A stretch of 41,272 bases of DNA from contig JAIUNY010000026.1 of NCBI GenBank assembly GCA_020161505.1, positions 1 through 41,272 of the forward strand. The letters run 5' to 3'. The notes under the pieces are model-generated. The model saw only the letters and a program-made list of their open reading frames with translations, did no database searches and was not told where the DNA came from. Every line of letters begins with the position of its first letter. Within the stretch, counting starts at the first letter, position 1. This stretch comes from Armatimonadota bacterium (GTDB lineage: Bacteria; Armatimonadota; Fimbriimonadia; Fimbriimonadales; Fimbriimonadaceae). Shown in pieces: positions 12,919 through 36,884 of the stretch. Position numbers and translations under genes: made by a program.

Positions 12919-13596
12919 TTACTTCTTGCGACGCTTCAGCATCGCGGCGGCACCCAGGCCGAGCAGCGCCATGGTGGTCGGCTCCGGCACCGCTTGGTAG
13001 CTCAGAGTGTCAATTCCGATGAAGTTCCCGGAGGTTGTGATGTCTTCGGCGAAATACCGGAGGGCAAGGCGCCCACTCGTCGGGCCGGTGAGCCCGGAGA
13101 GGGTGACCGTAAATTGCGTCCAGGCCAGCGGGTATCCGGTCTGCAGTTCCGTCGGGTTGATATCAAGGAGCACAGTGCTGAACGCCGACGCCGTTGTGCT
13201 GTTTCCGCTCGTGCTGAGTCGAACCTGAAGTCGATCCGAGAAATCGTGAGTGGCAGTTCGGGTGAAGAACGAGAGCGTATCGCCATTGTTCAGGGTTGCC
13301 GTGGGCAACATCATCCAGTTGCTGATTTGTCCGGTACTTGATCCCGCGAAGAAGTTTGTCGCGATATAACCACCCGACAAAGCGGGAATCGTGGCGTTGC
13401 CTTGGAACCAGTCTTCCGGACCGAGATTCGTCGAATCGTTGAGCAAGAACCAGCCGAGAGCCTCCAAATTGGCCCCGGCGGTTTGTCCGTTGGTCGTGGT
13501 ACCCCCGATGTCGTCGAAGTTCTGAGTGAAAGAGGTGGCGAAGCTGGCGCTCGCGGCAAGTACAGCCACGGAAGAGGCAAGAACCTTAAAGCACAT
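12919..13596 (-). CDS. PEP-CTERM sorting domain protein, choice-of-anchor J-like
   Basis: 225 residues. Signal peptide MCFKVLASSVAVLAASASFA. The body runs TQNFDDIG (start of a jelly-roll-like choice-of-anchor J domain), ALGWFLLNDS, ISNWMMLPTATLNNGDTLSF, LQVRLSTSG and GNFIGIDTLSY. The C-terminus (203-225) is VPEPTTMALLGLGAAAML then KRRKK: the PEP motif, membrane helix and basic tail recognised by exosortase for surface sorting. No exosortase is in the window. The long upstream open frame is ignored because the signal peptide fixes ATG 13596, which has GGAGA 9 nt before it. TATACT at 13663-13658 (minus) is a likely -10, giving a leader of about 50 nt. Confidence 0.9.
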   Translation of the reverse strand: MCFKVLASSVAVLAASASFATSFTQNFDDIGGTTTNGQTAGANLEALGWFLLNDSTNLGPEDWFQGNATIPALSGGYIATNFFAGSSTGQISNWMMLPTATLNNGDTLSFFTRTATHDFSDRLQVRLSTSGNSTTASAFSTVLLDINPTELQTGYPLAWTQFTVTLSGLTGPTSGRLALRYFAEDITTSGNFIGIDTLSYQAVPEPTTMALLGLGAAAMLKRRKK

Positions 13597-13657
13597 ATTT
13601 GTTTGTCTCCGAATAACGATGGCAGACCGGAAAACCCGACCCCAACTGAGGTTCTCA

Positions 13658-13663
13658 GTATAC
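13658..13663 (-). promoter_or_regulatory. -10 box upstream of the PEP-CTERM gene
   Basis: TATACT on the minus strand, with a loose TTGCTT 15 bp upstream. Unlike most genes here it leaves a real leader containing CGGAGA. The remaining 180 bp to the HerA-like gene show no other feature I can support. Confidence 0.5.
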
Positions 13664-13841
13664 GAAAAAGAACACCCAAGCAAAAACACTGACCGCGCAT
13701 TTAACAGCCTTGTTCCGAAAGCTAGTAAAAATAATGGGGGAAACTCATCGCCAAGCACGTCGCGGGAAGCCACGGAGGAGGCTTTGTAACTCGGCAGGGC
13801 TCTCACCCAACCGAGTTGCACGAACGACCAGGGCGAAGCCC

Positions 13842-26424: not shown

Positions 26425-27003
26425 GTGAGCCTATCCTTTGGTGCCGAATGTGTGGCGGCGGTGCGGCGCCGATTCGAGGCCTTCTCCCCTTCCCTGCTCA
26501 CTCTGGATGCGGTTGGAAAATCGGTTCGCTTCGTCCCCGAAACGGACCCCAGTTTCCCGGTGAGCGTCTACGATCTCGGCGACGAAGTGATGGTGGCTTG
26601 TTCCCGCTGGCACACCCACTGCGAGACAATTGAAGAAGCGGAAGCCTGCGTCTGGTGGCTTCTCACCCCCTACGCCCGCATCGTTCACGAACTGAAAGGA
26701 GGCATTCTCGCCGCCGTGTGGCTCGAGCGATTTGAAGGCTCGGAGTGGTTCGCCAGCGATCCCGTCTATTTCATCAACCCGGAATATCCGCCGGATTGGC
26801 GACTCGGGCCAGGGCAGATTTATCGTCGCAGGCGATACCAGCAAGCGGTGCTTCCGCCACCGATTGCGCCCGAAGACTTCTGCGAAATCGCACTGCTTGA
26901 CGAGGGATTCTTCCCACCCGACTCGAGGCTCGGAGAGCGATGGGAGGAGAGCAAGACACCCGTCGGGCCCTCACTCTTTGAACCAGAGCCCGAAGACGAC
27001 TAG
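26425..27003 (+). CDS. Hypothetical protein, 192 aa
   Basis: I do not recognise the family. It is a soluble, acidic protein with many aromatic residues (VACSRWHTHCETIEEAEACV then WWLLTPYARIVHELKGG) and a proline-rich C-terminal third ending EPEPEDD. The HTHCET segment could bind metal, but nothing else supports that. Its TAG stop overlaps the TAG stop of the convergent B12 regulator through the palindrome CTAG, leaving no intergenic space. Confidence 0.65.
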   Translation: MSLSFGAECVAAVRRRFEAFSPSLLTLDAVGKSVRFVPETDPSFPVSVYDLGDEVMVACSRWHTHCETIEEAEACVWWLLTPYARIVHELKGGILAAVWLERFEGSEWFASDPVYFINPEYPPDWRLGPGQIYRRRRYQQAVLPPPIAPEDFCEIALLDEGFFPPDSRLGERWEESKTPVGPSLFEPEPEDD

Positions 27004-27941
27004 TTACGACTCGAGCTGGAAGCCTGCTTTTCAAGCTCGCTCAGCTGATGCTCGGTGAAGTGACTCAGGCTCCGGGCCACAAACGCAATCCCGTGCTTGC
27101 GCGCTTCGCCTTCGTTCTCGACAAACGCCCGACCTCCTCCGCCAAGGACAAACGGACGACTCTTGTGGAGCTCGTTCAGTTGCCCGAGCAGATTCCAGGC
27201 TGCCGGAAGCTGATCATCAAGCGGACACGAGACAAGCACGACGCTCGGTCGGTGCTCGCGCACCGCAGAAACAAACGATTCGGTTGGAACATTGGCACCC
27301 AGGTAGAACGTGCGCCAGCCGGAGAGTCGCATGACATCCGCCACCATCCGCAGCCCCAAACTGTGCCAGTTTCCTTCAACGCAACCCAAAACAACAGAGT
27401 GAGCCGTCGCCTTCGGCGGTGCGCTGTGGTGGAGCACGCGAGCCATCAGACGCTCGATAATCGCGCTCGCCATGTGCTCTTGCCCCACGTCAATCGCGCC
27501 GACTTCCCACCACTTGCCGATCATCACCAGGGAGTCAGCGAACAGACTCTCGTAGACGTGGACAATGTCAATGCGCTGACGAACGAGAGTATCGACCAAG
27601 CGCGTGCACTCGAATTCATCGCCCGCAACCGCAGCCTTGCTGAAAGCCTTGGTGAGGTCTTCGCCGAGGGTCAGATCTTCGCCCGGAATCTCCTCATTGA
27701 TGACGAGACCGTCGAGCGCTTCCCCGATTTCCGCGGTAGCCAAAGAGTAATAGACCTGCCGGCCGACCTTGGTGGCGCGCACGAGTCCCTTGGACTTCAT
27801 CCGCGCGAGGTGGTTGCTCACGTTCGGCTGCTTCATGCCCGTCGCATCGACAAGTTCGCCGACGCTCTTCGGCCCGGACTTGATGAGGCCAAGGATCGTC
27901 CGTTTGCTGGGTTCGGCGAGTTCTTTAAGGAGATCGATCAT
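27000..27941 (-). CDS. ArsR-type winged-helix regulator fused to a CarH-like B12-binding light-sensor module
   Basis: 313 residues. Residues 1-75 are an ArsR-type winged helix: LAEPSKRTILGLIKSGPKSV, MKQPNVSNHLARMKSKGLV (recognition helix) and VGRQVYYSL (wing). Residues 95-170 form a four-helix B12 cap with W145, nine residues, then E155-H156: the W-x9-EH motif of CarH/LitR photoreceptors. Residues 180-300 are a Rossmann B12 domain with NWHSLG (191-196), where H193 fits the lower cobalt ligand (usual DxHxxG, Asp here Asn), and FVLGGGGRAF. In CarH the residue after the Trp is His132, the light-state upper ligand; here it is E146. Known CarH proteins use a MerR head, so the ArsR head is unusual. 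It probably binds adenosylcobalamin and regulates the divergent promoter. TATTGC lies 6 nt before the ATG. Confidence 0.88.
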   Translation of the reverse strand: MIDLLKELAEPSKRTILGLIKSGPKSVGELVDATGMKQPNVSNHLARMKSKGLVRATKVGRQVYYSLATAEIGEALDGLVINEEIPGEDLTLGEDLTKAFSKAAVAGDEFECTRLVDTLVRQRIDIVHVYESLFADSLVMIGKWWEVGAIDVGQEHMASAIIERLMARVLHHSAPPKATAHSVVLGCVEGNWHSLGLRMVADVMRLSGWRTFYLGANVPTESFVSAVREHRPSVVLVSCPLDDQLPAAWNLLGQLNELHKSRPFVLGGGGRAFVENEGEARKHGIAFVARSLSHFTEHQLSELEKQASSSSRN

Positions 27942-27947
27942 GCGCGA

Positions 27948-27978
27948 GCAATACGAGAAGGGCTAACACGACAGTCAA
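27948..27978 (-). promoter_or_regulatory. Promoter of the ArsR-B12 regulator
   Basis: On the minus strand TTGACT (27978-27973), 19-bp spacer, TATTGC (27953-27948), then 6 nt to the ATG at 27941. The -35 box overlaps the palindrome ACAGTCAACTGT, which would allow autoregulation. Confidence 0.5.
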
Positions 27979-28007
27979 CTGTGTTTATTATAGACGAAAC
28001 ATTCGTC
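27963..28007 (+). promoter_or_regulatory. Divergent operator: two palindromes around a plus-strand promoter
   Basis: CTAACA (27963-27968; 4 of 6 with TTGACA), 17-bp spacer, TATTAT (27986-27991). Inside the spacer is ACAGT-CA-ACTGT (27971-27982), and over the expected start site is GACGAA-ACA-TTCGTC (27993-28007). Palindromes placed over spacer and start are typical for repressor operators; the divergent B12 regulator is the likely ligand-responsive repressor. TAGAAT at 28074-28079, 12 nt before the dehydrogenase ATG, is a second candidate -10. Confidence 0.55.
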
Positions 28008-28091
28008 CCCCGTAGCCTCTTTCTTTTTTCCACCCCGACCTAACGGCGGGCCGACTTCGCCCGAACCAATCAGTAGAATAGAGAATCCATC

Positions 28092-29249
28092 ATGGTTACC
28101 GAGTCGCTTACCCAAGGGATCGACGATATGATCCCCCTCATCAACGCTGATGAATCCGCGTTCCTCGACCAAGTTCGAGCCTTCGTGGCTTCGGAAGTCC
28201 TTCCTTTCACTCGTGATTGGGAGAACGCCACCGCCTTCCCCGACGAAATTTGGCCCAAGCTCGGCAAAGCCGGTCTCCTCGCGATGACCGTGGCCAAGGA
28301 GTGGGGCGGACGCGATTACTCCTGCCGCGCCTACGTGGAAGCCTGCCGCGAGCTCGCCAAAGGCGATCCTGCTCTCGCGATGAATGTCGCCGCGATCAAT
28401 GCTCTCGTGGCCGCTCACATTGAGCACTTCGGCAGCGATGCCCAAAAGGAGAAGTATCTCCGCGCCGCCACCGAAGGTCATGTCAAGCTGGCTTGGGGTC
28501 TCACCGAGCCGGATGCCGGCAGTGACGCCCGCCGCGTGCAAACCCACGCCACTCCGATCGAAGGCGAGGCTGGTTGGTACCACCTCAACGGTGAAAAGAT
28601 GTTCATCACTAACGGCGGCAAGGCCGACCTCATCGTGATGGTCGCGCGGACGGGTGAGAAGGAACTCTCTGCCTTCCTGATGGAGACCAATCAACCAGGC
28701 TTCGAGCTCGTCCAACGAATCCACACCGTGGGTGTGAAGGCGAGCAACACCGTTCACTTCAAGCTGACCAATGCCCGAGCCTGGCACACCCCCTGCACCT
28801 TCGAGCAAGCGATCTCGCTTCTCTACCGAGGTCGACTCGGAATTGCTGCCATGGCGGTCGGGATTGCCGAAAAGGCCTTTGAACTCGCCCTGGAATATTC
28901 CCAGCAGCGCGAGCAGTTCAACCGACGCCTCTGCGACATGCAAAGCGTACAAAACATGCTCGCCGACTCTGCGATGGAGATCGAAGCCGCTCGGCTCCTG
29001 CTCCTCAAGGGTGCGAGCCTGTATGACGCGGGCAAGGATGTCGTGAAGGCCAGTTCCTACGCCAAGCTCTACGCGAGCGAGACCGCCAATCGGGTCACCA
29101 ACCGAGCGATCCAGATCCACGGCGGACGCGGCATGACCGATTTCTCCCTCGTCGAGAAGCTCTGGCGTGACGCCAAACTGACCGAAATCGGCGAAGGATG
29201 CAGCGAAATCCAACGTCTGGTGATCTCGAAGCAACTCTTGAAGGGCTAG
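28092..29249 (+). CDS. Acyl-CoA dehydrogenase
   Basis: 385 residues, full length. This FAD enzyme introduces the alpha,beta double bond in acyl-CoA. Visible are the N-terminal helical domain (LPFTRDWENATAFPDEIWPK), the flavin-binding segment WGLTEPDAGSDARRV, MFITNGGKADLIVMVAR, YSQQREQFNRRLCDMQSVQN and the C-terminal IQIHGGRGMTDFSLVEKLWR followed by AKLTEIGEGCSEIQRLVI, with E368 as catalytic base. Chain length preference cannot be told. Its promoter region is shared with the ArsR-B12 regulator, so its expression may be set by B12 or light. Confidence 0.94.
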   Translation: MVTESLTQGIDDMIPLINADESAFLDQVRAFVASEVLPFTRDWENATAFPDEIWPKLGKAGLLAMTVAKEWGGRDYSCRAYVEACRELAKGDPALAMNVAAINALVAAHIEHFGSDAQKEKYLRAATEGHVKLAWGLTEPDAGSDARRVQTHATPIEGEAGWYHLNGEKMFITNGGKADLIVMVARTGEKELSAFLMETNQPGFELVQRIHTVGVKASNTVHFKLTNARAWHTPCTFEQAISLLYRGRLGIAAMAVGIAEKAFELALEYSQQREQFNRRLCDMQSVQNMLADSAMEIEAARLLLLKGASLYDAGKDVVKASSYAKLYASETANRVTNRAIQIHGGRGMTDFSLVEKLWRDAKLTEIGEGCSEIQRLVISKQLLKG

Positions 29250-35570: not shown

Positions 35571-36479
35571 TCAGCTCTTCTTGCGTCGGCGCAGAGCCGC
35601 CAGACCGCCCAGGGCGAGCAGAGTCATCGTTGCCGGCTCGGGCACGGCTTCCACTTGAACGTTGTCGTAGACCACGAACAGGTCGGTCGCGGAACCCAGG
35701 GAGGCACTGAACGGATCTTGGTATCCGATGAAGACGGAACCGCTGGTCGGACCGGTGTTCACGACGTCCGAAACGAGGGTGTTGTTCAGGAACAACTTCA
35801 CATTTCCGCCCGATTCTTCGATGCGAACACGCACCCAGCTGTTGCCCGGCGCGCCCGCCAGAGGACCGTTCGGGAAGAGGGTCAGGAACGGCTCTTCGGC
35901 ATTGTCCTTTCGGTCAGCCACGCCGTTGTTGATGTAGTTCACGTAGTCGCGACTGTTCGGGGTGGTGCTGGTGTTTCCGTAGCCACCCTCGTTCGCGAGG
36001 TGATACCACACGCCATCGGCACCCGTCTGAGTGGCACCAGTTCGGCTGTTCACGCCCGCCCCATCGGTGTTGATGCCGAAGAGAGCTTGCTCGGTCGAGT
36101 TGGTCAGGGCACCCACGCCCATCCACATATCGAAGCTGAAGATGATTTCTTGGCCAAAGTTGATCGCCACGCCACCGCTAGAAGCGGTCAGGTTCAGACC
36201 ATTGATGACGCCCGTCGCGCCCTTGTTGGCTTGCAGGAAAAGACCACGCGTCGCCGCATCGCCGACGATCGTGCCGGGAGCTTCTGCGAGACCCTTGGTG
36301 CTGTAGTCGAAGCCGAAAGTGACCACGTCGCCCGCGCCAGCAGCAGCGGAGGTCGTGGTGAGGAAGTTAGAGGACGAAGACGCCGAGTTGAACGCATCGC
36401 GGAAGAGTTGAGCCGAAGCCGCGCCAGGAATCACAGCGAGGAGAGCCGCGGAAAGCGGCAAAAGCACTTTTTTATTCAT
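35571..36479 (-). CDS. PEP-CTERM sorting domain protein, lectin/LamG-like
   Basis: 302 residues. The signal peptide is MNKKVLLPLSAALLAVIPGA then ASAQ. The middle is a beta-sandwich-like region (VAINFGQEIIFSFDMWMGVG, WVRVRIEESGGNVKLFLNNT, VFIGYQDPF) of the kind seen in concanavalin-like exported proteins. The C-terminus (279-302) has AVPEPATMTLLALGGLAAL followed by RRRKKS, the exosortase-processed signal. ATG 36479 is chosen for the signal peptide; GGAGA sits 9 nt before it, the same distance as in the other PEP-CTERM gene. Confidence 0.9.
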   Translation of the reverse strand: MNKKVLLPLSAALLAVIPGAASAQLFRDAFNSASSSSNFLTTTSAAAGAGDVVTFGFDYSTKGLAEAPGTIVGDAATRGLFLQANKGATGVINGLNLTASSGGVAINFGQEIIFSFDMWMGVGALTNSTEQALFGINTDGAGVNSRTGATQTGADGVWYHLANEGGYGNTSTTPNSRDYVNYINNGVADRKDNAEEPFLTLFPNGPLAGAPGNSWVRVRIEESGGNVKLFLNNTLVSDVVNTGPTSGSVFIGYQDPFSASLGSATDLFVVYDNVQVEAVPEPATMTLLALGGLAALRRRKKS

Positions 36480-36884
36480 TTCCTTTGATCTCCGAAAAAA
36501 GAGAGGCAATCACGATCAGGAATTGCACGCACAATCACCTGCTCGAATATCGATATCTTAACCAAAAAGCAGGGTCGTCGTCAGCAAATCCCGCATTCTT
36601 TCTGGTGGTATTTTTGCGGGTTTTTGGGGGCAGGGACGCTCAGCCCGCCCGGACAACTCATGAGGCAGGTCATCCGGAGGCTTCATGGAGGGGCCGTGCA
36701 GGAACCGTGCCCTCACTGATCCAGGTTTTTTTGGGGGGACGTCGTTGAGGGGTGGGGTGGCGAGCGCGAGACTTCCCGAGCCTCAAGGGATCAGGGCACC
36801 CTGAGCGTGAGTGCCCGAACAAAGAAAAACCCGCCCCAGAGAAACCTCTGGAGCGGGCTCGATTCGGCTGGATCAAGAGCGGAC
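36480..36884. other. 405-bp intergenic region with leader, decayed repeat copy and groEL terminator
   Basis: The left part is the PEP-CTERM leader and promoter area (AT-rich ATATCGATATC). Around 36730-36805 is a stretch resembling the 134-bp repeats in reverse orientation: a G-run with CGTCG, then TTCCCGAGCCTCAAGGGATC and AGGGCACCC, against CTCCCGACCCTGAAGGGATC and GGGGCACCC in the complement of copy 2. The right part is the groEL terminator. No gene is supported. Confidence 0.5.
36821..36857 (-). terminator. Rho-independent terminator of groESL
   Basis: On the minus strand CCCGCTCCAGAG, loop GTTT, CTCTGGGGCGGG, then TTTTTCTTTG; one G-T pair in a 12-bp stem. Confidence 0.92.

Follow-up and report, generated by a model that had tools for sequence, protein, structure and literature searches.

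The 313-aa open reading frame at 27000–27941 (minus strand, ATG start) of the window, the 41,272-nucleotide stretch of Armatimonadota DNA analyzed here, is a real and conserved gene whose product joins an ArsR winged helix to a cobalamin-binding domain (CBD) of the CarH type. Comparison of relatives indicates that this regulator controls one ECF sigma gene. It is likely to act as a dark repressor loaded with adenosylcobalamin (AdoCbl), photolysis freeing an ECF-sigma/photolyase response; here we infer AdoCbl as the ligand, light as the signal, repression rather than activation, and the dimer stoichiometry. On balance we also favor a separate lineage of B12 photoreceptors, in which a palindrome-bound ArsR dimer would form a light-released ECF-sigma/photolyase switch with no bis-His lock and mostly no capping Trp.

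Domain composition and predicted fold of the regulator

Pfam searches located HTH_5/ArsR at aa 11–55 (41.8 bits, cut-off 22), B12-binding_2 (PF02607) at aa 98–168 (48 bits, cut-off 23) and B12-binding (PF02310) at aa 182–288 (69 bits, cut-off 32.1). The NCBIfam ArsR/SmtB subfamily model NF033788 also matched (73.2 bits, cut-off 55), so that the ArsR head and B12 module named in a first-pass annotation were both recovered above cut-off, the head in both collections. All three Pfam domains are present in 50/50 members of the family alignment, and the fusion is therefore not a product of chance. Curated models of single families were not reached: the regulator scored 54.7 bits against a cut-off of 400 for the CarH equivalog NF052513 (NCBIfam), 44 bits against 215 for the corrinoid methyltransferase model TIGR02370, and far under the cut-offs of the NCBIfam MtgC and MtaC models.

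The ArsR/SmtB-type DNA-binding head (aa 1–80; 27702–27941, minus strand) was delimited by HTH_5, NF033788 and the residue list. Q38, P39, N40, S42 and H44 of its recognition region are invariant in the family alignment. As aa 1–90 lack Cys and have H44 as their only His, the head has no recognisable ArsR metal site; metal-binding head residues are not universal among ArsR members. The regulator shares the winged-helix head, the expected dimer and the two-fold operator with the ArsR/SmtB metalloregulators (NmtR, CmtR, SdpR), but its head lacks their metal-ligand residues and sensing would be shifted to the fused CBD.

The AlphaFold2 model, calculated with the family alignment as input, has a mean pLDDT of 94.7 and a pTM of 0.77. 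Confidence is lowest in the linker (aa 81–93; 27663–27701, minus strand), with a pLDDT of 68 for block 81–90; given this weak linker and the pTM, the placement of the head relative to the CBD stays loose. The four-helix-bundle half of the CBD (aa 94–170; 27432–27662, minus strand), which corresponds to PF02607 and would cap the upper face, has modeled helices at 94–105, 109–121, 126–146 and 152–170. In the Rossmann half (aa 178–311; 27009–27410, minus strand), which corresponds to PF02310, strands alternate with helices in the model.

Foldseek returned CtMerR, the photocobilins and CarH as the best matches. VIA-align gave Z 25.8 for photocobilin 8j2w (1.8 Å over 204 residues), 24.5 for CtMerR 8jbs and 21.1 for CarH 5c8e, and the whole CBD superposes on these three at 1.8–2.8 Å with the helical cap and Rossmann halves arranged as in CarH. 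Corrinoid methyltransferase proteins and MetH also matched in VIA-align, at lower scores or over one half only, and monomethylamine corrinoid protein and MetH fragments came near CarH in Z with a larger rmsd. Since corrinoid proteins share the fold, the fold alone is no proof of light sensing. The profile ranking placed CtMerR first (2.6e-34), followed by SasPcob (1.9e-32), MttC (1.8e-22) and CarH (4.5e-15); together with the signature residues described below, it points to a light-type CBD. The CarH-like module proposed in the annotation is thus consistent with structure prediction and structure search, both of which give a CarH-type fold carrying the signature residues.

It seems very improbable that the regulator senses a signal other than cobalamin, be it heme or redox as in the SCHIC domains of AppA, or is a light-blind, CarA-like form. 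AppA SCHIC structures do match the model at Z about 20, PF21966 (AppA_SCHIC) matches 3/50 family members, and one relative, L084, lacks EH and His193. The window protein nevertheless retains EH, H193 and the CarH-type signature, and it is much nearer in sequence to CtMerR and the photocobilins (E 1e-32 to 1e-34) than to AppA (E 1e-9).

Signature residues of light-responsive CBDs

The SignatureFinder study found that GxxW, EH, GxxH and GxxxP distinguish light-responsive CBDs from other CBDs (PMC11796333). All four occur in the regulator, in which the residues G142, W144, W145, E146, E155, H156, G190, N191, H193, G196, G215 and P219 were read. The GxxW signature is G142-K-W-W145 (27507–27518, minus strand); in the alignment with CtMerR and SasPcob (GVLW), W145 takes the position of CarH W131. 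E155-H156 (27474–27479, minus strand) is the adenosyl-contacting pair. G190-N-W-H193 (27363–27374, minus strand) forms the GxxH signature, with H193 the lower axial cobalt ligand predicted from the alignment, and G215–P219 (27285–27299, minus strand) forms GxxxP, which in CtMerR is a dimer-interface loop (PMC11796333). Across the 50-member family alignment A1, E155 and H156 never vary, and conservation is at least 90% at G142, H193, G196, G215 and P219. The residues that the annotation had named (W145-x9-E155-H156, H193 and Glu146) are as it gave them.

The W-x9-EH motif of CarH/LitR is present in the regulator, but its Trp is often Tyr across the clade: the 59 aligned sequences have Tyr 37 times, Trp 17 times and Phe twice at the CarH W131 position, so that W145, correctly identified, is no family constant. 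On the CBD tree, the ArsR-CBD proteins form a clade of 52 rows with support 100/100 that mostly has Tyr at this position. Trp occurs in two groups, and the window regulator belongs to one of them; Tyr looks ancestral within the clade. From the classic D/ExHxxG motif the regulator keeps H193 and G196 but has Asn191 at the D/E position, where most family members have Asn or Ser. Both the Tyr in place of the capping Trp and the Asn/Ser beside the predicted lower-ligand His count against the preferred reading of the regulator. In myxobacteria, B12-independent CarA is marked by loss of the capping Trp and flanking residues (PMC9304148).

Glu146 (27504–27506, minus strand) aligns with CarH His132, which is the upper cobalt ligand in the light state, and the position of Glu146 varies freely (E 21, Q 8, K 8 and M 7 in the 59 sequences). 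The annotation had expected different light-state chemistry from this substitution. The substitution is real, but light-active CBDs without His132 have precedents: the equivalent residue is Arg in CtMerR, Gln in SasPcob and Tyr in AbDPcob (PMC11796333). A water- or hydroxide-ligated light state is accordingly predicted, which is not unheard-of chemistry. Dissociation largely fails in CarH-H132A (PMC10442372), so DNA release by the regulator would have to go another way, as in SasPcob, where a shift of the Glu71/His72 helix in light breaks the dimer (PMC10979010).

One relative, L084 (6932–7993, minus strand; genome G083), retains the ArsR head, whereas its EH pair and its lower-ligand His have been lost. 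The ECF promoter of its host still has a 15.5-bit operator. The L084 product is perhaps a B12-blind, CarA-like form.

Predicted operator and the ECF sigma gene

A 24-bp palindrome, ATATATCAnTGnnCAnTGATATAT, was found upstream of the regulator genes. When 47 non-redundant regulator upstreams were submitted to expectation maximization (EM) under a palindromic model, atatATcAnTGnnCAnTgATatat emerged; at width 24 its log-likelihood was 133, and shuffled controls reached 42–44. Of the 47 upstreams, each held out once in five-fold cross-validation, 23 had a candidate site at p<0.05 and 20 at p<0.01. The CarH operators described so far consist of 11-bp direct repeats in tandem (PMC9304148); upstream of the regulator and ECF genes the predicted operator takes the form of the palindrome and not of such repeats. 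Its two-fold symmetry fits an ArsR dimer and lends weight to the "different oligomer logic" that had been suggested for this protein.

A pattern scan of the Fimbriimonadaceae showed that the palindrome recurs just 5' of one ECF sigma gene, which is unlinked to the regulator and lies on a separate contig in the window's genome. The ECF family (alignment A2) is found in 67/85 genomes at E<=1e-45. Scored with a matrix built from regulator upstreams alone (some of the genomes scored had also served to find the ECF gene), the ECF promoter reached at least 10 bits in 42/43 genomes with the regulator (median 18.0) and in 2/24 without it (median 3.0; Fisher 2e-14), counts that are only partly corrected for shared ancestry and include as regulator-positive G087, whose CBD is truncated at a contig edge. 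The two regulator-negative genomes with an operator, G141 and G099, are incomplete MAGs, and in the sole regulator-positive miss, G122, the ECF match is non-orthologous. Contrasts within genera g1, g6, g14 and g31 guard against shared ancestry: in g1 the promoter scores 13.4 bits in the window's genome (G000), 14.5 in G151, 14.7 in G152 and 19.3 in G153 against 3.6 in G156, in g31 16.5 (G147) against 0.2 (G146), and in g14 15.1 (G116) against 3.1–4.8. Comparison across these genomes shows a link between the predicted operator and the ECF gene.

In the window's genome the predicted operator, TTACATCACTCTGTTGTAATATCA, is at contig C6:120196–120219. It overlies the spacer and -10 element of TTGACT-N17-TAATAT, the near-consensus sigma70 promoter of the ECF gene, which is the position expected of a repressor. 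This bears on whether the regulator, though light-responsive, is an activator in light or exerts bidirectional control, as might be proposed by analogy with Streptomyces LitR, described as promoting litS transcription in light (PMC12705666). The geometry at the ECF promoter is that of a repressor and makes such control quite unlikely. Most members of the ArsR family are repressors, which also speaks against activation.

A conserved protein of about 121 aa (MKFVVITKD...) is encoded divergently to the ECF gene in L163, L170, L173, L181, L183 and L225, and is a possible partner of the ECF factor. The operator palindrome also occurs immediately 5' of fasciclin-domain-like genes in L185, L186 and L187 (genomes G129, G130 and G131), possible further targets, and in L180 (genome G111) an RpoD-like (group 2) sigma factor gene is preceded by an operator-like palindrome. 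Another palindrome, ATATATCGATnnnnATCGATATAT, found 4–5 bp before SDR-family dehydrogenase-like genes in L164, L166 and L177 (G083, G085 and G099), would be the operator of another regulator.

Photolyase genes and the CGTAG motif

At least two photolyase-family matches were found in 26/40 high-quality genomes with the regulator and 0/30 without it, G087 being entered as regulator-negative in this count and in the PduO and mutase counts below. Genes of a DPRP-like second photolyase family, as well as additional class-I paralogues, have the motif CGTAG a few nucleotides before their start; the background frequency of CGTAG is 18/464 genes. The test was made on genes collected later, one top-ranking class-I photolyase per genome. 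CGTAG preceded this gene in 43/45 scored ECF-positive genomes (32/34 with the regulator, 11/11 without), where it was also the commonest 5-mer in the upstreams, and in 1/10 ECF-negative genomes (1/9 without the regulator, 0/1 with it). With the single regulator-positive, ECF-negative genome left out, the association of CGTAG with the ECF gene (43/45 vs 1/9) has a Fisher p of 3.7e-7. Because the motif is equally present in all 11 regulator-negative, ECF-positive genomes, the comparison tests the ECF step and not the light step. Within genus g1, CGTAG is present in ECF-positive G151, G152, G153 and G156, and missing in ECF-negative G154, G155 and G157. Both photolyase genes of the window's genome have CGTAGAG.

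This comparison shows a link between CGTAG and the class-I photolyase genes, and we infer that this ECF factor reads CGTAG. A -35 element was not found in the CGTAG promoters: EM came modestly above shuffles and the spacing was not fixed. Direct control of the DPRP-like family by the regulator was considered and rejected, since its upstreams are without an operator (their best scores fall in the background range) and have CGTAG instead.

Distribution and cobalamin supply

The window's genome is that of a Fimbriimonadaceae species, in keeping with the annotation of its nearest loci. A regulator match was found in 69/291 Armatimonadota genomes, with about 53 full-length ArsR-CBD proteins, and in 43/85 Fimbriimonadaceae genomes. 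Among the 397 "relatives" genomes, full-length matches were confined to Armatimonadota and other phyla gave CBD-only matches. About 620 genomes from outside the Armatimonadota, of ~900 searched overall and with two further phyla (321 and 195 genomes) among them, yielded no ArsR-CBD fusion, nor did plasmids at >=80% coverage; a wider contig collection was scanned with close-relative patterns only. The ArsR-CBD proteins L090 and L091 (families f28 and f16) have long branches among other CBDs, off the main clade, and perhaps record a second, independent fusion event.

PduO-type adenosyltransferase is encoded in 70/70 high-quality Fimbriimonadaceae genomes, so AdoCbl is available. This universality would also suit a sensor of B12 status that reports AdoCbl supply, photochemistry being incidental or absent, as would the presence of Tyr instead of the capping Trp in the majority of members and the co-occurrence of some B12-dependent mutases (16/43 regulator-positive vs 5/42 other genomes, p=0.011). 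We regard such a sensor as unlikely. Methylmalonyl-CoA mutase, present in 21/85 Fimbriimonadaceae genomes, is missing from most of those with the regulator; the light-specific signature set is kept; and an indirect output of photolyase genes, with co-occurring extra photolyases, would be odd for a vitamin gauge.

Proposed mechanism and related systems

The preferred reading, a light-released repressor, would work as follows. In the dark, an AdoCbl-loaded dimer with paired ArsR heads and docked CBDs would repress the unlinked ECF gene by occupying the 24-bp palindrome that overlies its sigma70 promoter; roughly half of the relatives would have the dimer on the regulator's own promoter as well. 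Green or blue light would cleave the Co–C bond, and the loss of adenosine would reorganize the E155/H156 helix and the CBD–CBD contact so that DNA is released. Since Glu146 stands for His132, release would take place without the bis-His lock of CarH. The freed ECF gene would then supply the ECF factor, which would transcribe the class I and DPRP-like photolyase genes from their CGTAG promoters. The B12- and light-responsive repressor that the first-pass annotation had envisaged gains support from the predicted fold, the signatures and this putative ECF-sigma/photolyase circuit. The window's own regulator promoter, with weak operators only, counts against this reading, as does L084, in which EH and the lower-ligand His are gone although the ECF operator persists in its genome.

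CtMerR of Chloracidobacterium thermophilum (PDB 8JBS/8JBT), the best profile match, resembles the regulator in its CBD fold, its four light signatures, its lack of His132 (Arg, where the regulator has Glu) and a CBD placed C-terminal to the DNA-binding head. Its head is of the MerR type, whereas that of the regulator is ArsR and the predicted target is an ECF-sigma promoter. The photocobilins (SasPcob, AbDPcob; PDB 8J2W/8J2X/8J2Y), the best structural match, have a light state with water or hydroxide on cobalt and not bis-His (PMC10979010), and the same is predicted for the regulator. Their biliverdin-binding globin domain is absent from the regulator, whose chain ends at aa 313 after the Rossmann half, and their output is enzymatic or stand-alone where that of the regulator would be DNA binding. 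CarH and class I LitR (Thermus, Bacillus, Myxococcales) share the AdoCbl-type CBD (Z about 21), W-x9-EH and a His at the lower-ligand position, and repress in the dark, as the regulator would; they differ in having a MerR head, where the regulator has an ArsR head, no His132 and a palindromic predicted operator.

The closest logic is that of Streptomyces LitR and LitS, in which the response genes are driven by an alternative sigma factor whose gene is under a B12 light regulator (PMC12705666); the circuit proposed here follows it by genomic footprint only. LitR is MerR-headed, and the regulator differs in its ArsR head, its unlinked sigma gene and a predicted output of photolyases. Photolyase output is known from Pseudomonas class II LitR (PMC9758184) and is likewise proposed here.

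B12 photoreceptor transcription factors in the literature searched have MerR heads; data mining lists further HTH fusions, in which ArsR is unnamed. No publication naming an ArsR-CBD fusion was found, a weak absence because subscription journals lay mostly outside the search. If the proposed mechanism is true, a B12 light switch can be built on two-fold symmetry and not on CarH tetramers and direct repeats, and the AdoCbl light module would prove portable between DNA-binding families. The compact palindromic operator would offer a simpler green-light switch for optogenetics, and the Armatimonadota would have a light-responsive circuit whose target genes are predicted. Natural variation at two key positions (Trp/Tyr and Glu/Gln/Lys/Met) provides a testable series from light-state chemistry to release.

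Divergent neighbor and the regulator's own promoter

An acyl-CoA dehydrogenase gene (28092–29249, plus strand) is divergent to the regulator, an adjacency seen in 35 loci and thus in most genomes of the family. Its promoter has its own conserved sigma70-like AGTAGAAT box, AGTA[GAC]AAT, and operators in the divergent region sit towards the regulator start, apart from that box. The two genes belong to a longer syntenic block, together with a hypothetical protein, a glycosyltransferase-like protein and XerD. Control of this dehydrogenase or of fatty-acid oxidation, with a coincidental photolyase link, is scarcely credible: the divergent pair is kept in 35 loci and a FadB-like gene lies close by in 16, but the operators avoid the dehydrogenase box, genes other than acyl-CoA dehydrogenase adjoin the regulator in f12/f13 genomes, and it is the ECF link that is almost perfect. 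The dehydrogenase was therefore rejected as the main target, which it probably is not, and its adjacency is read as synteny first and regulation second.

The region 27942–28091, which the annotation had suggested for gel shifts, has weak candidate operators only in the window's genome. The family matrix gave one at 27966–27989 (6.9 bits, held-out p = 0.065) and another, of 9.7 bits, at 27933–27956 across the regulator start codon. A perfect inverted repeat, GACGAA-ACA-TTCGTC, at 27993–28007 in the divergent promoter region is not in register in relatives. At 28011–28015 (plus strand), some 77 nt ahead of the dehydrogenase start, stands a CGTAG that may have arisen by chance or may mark an additional ECF-type promoter. 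The same motif precedes the regulator start in L059, L062, L066, L075 and L081, several of which are without a good palindrome, and raises the question of whether feedback by the ECF factor replaces direct autorepression at these genes. Elsewhere in the window, two secreted proteins (12919–13821 and 35571–36509, both minus strand) have a PEP-CTERM-like C-terminal sorting signal (VPEPxxM...RRRK).
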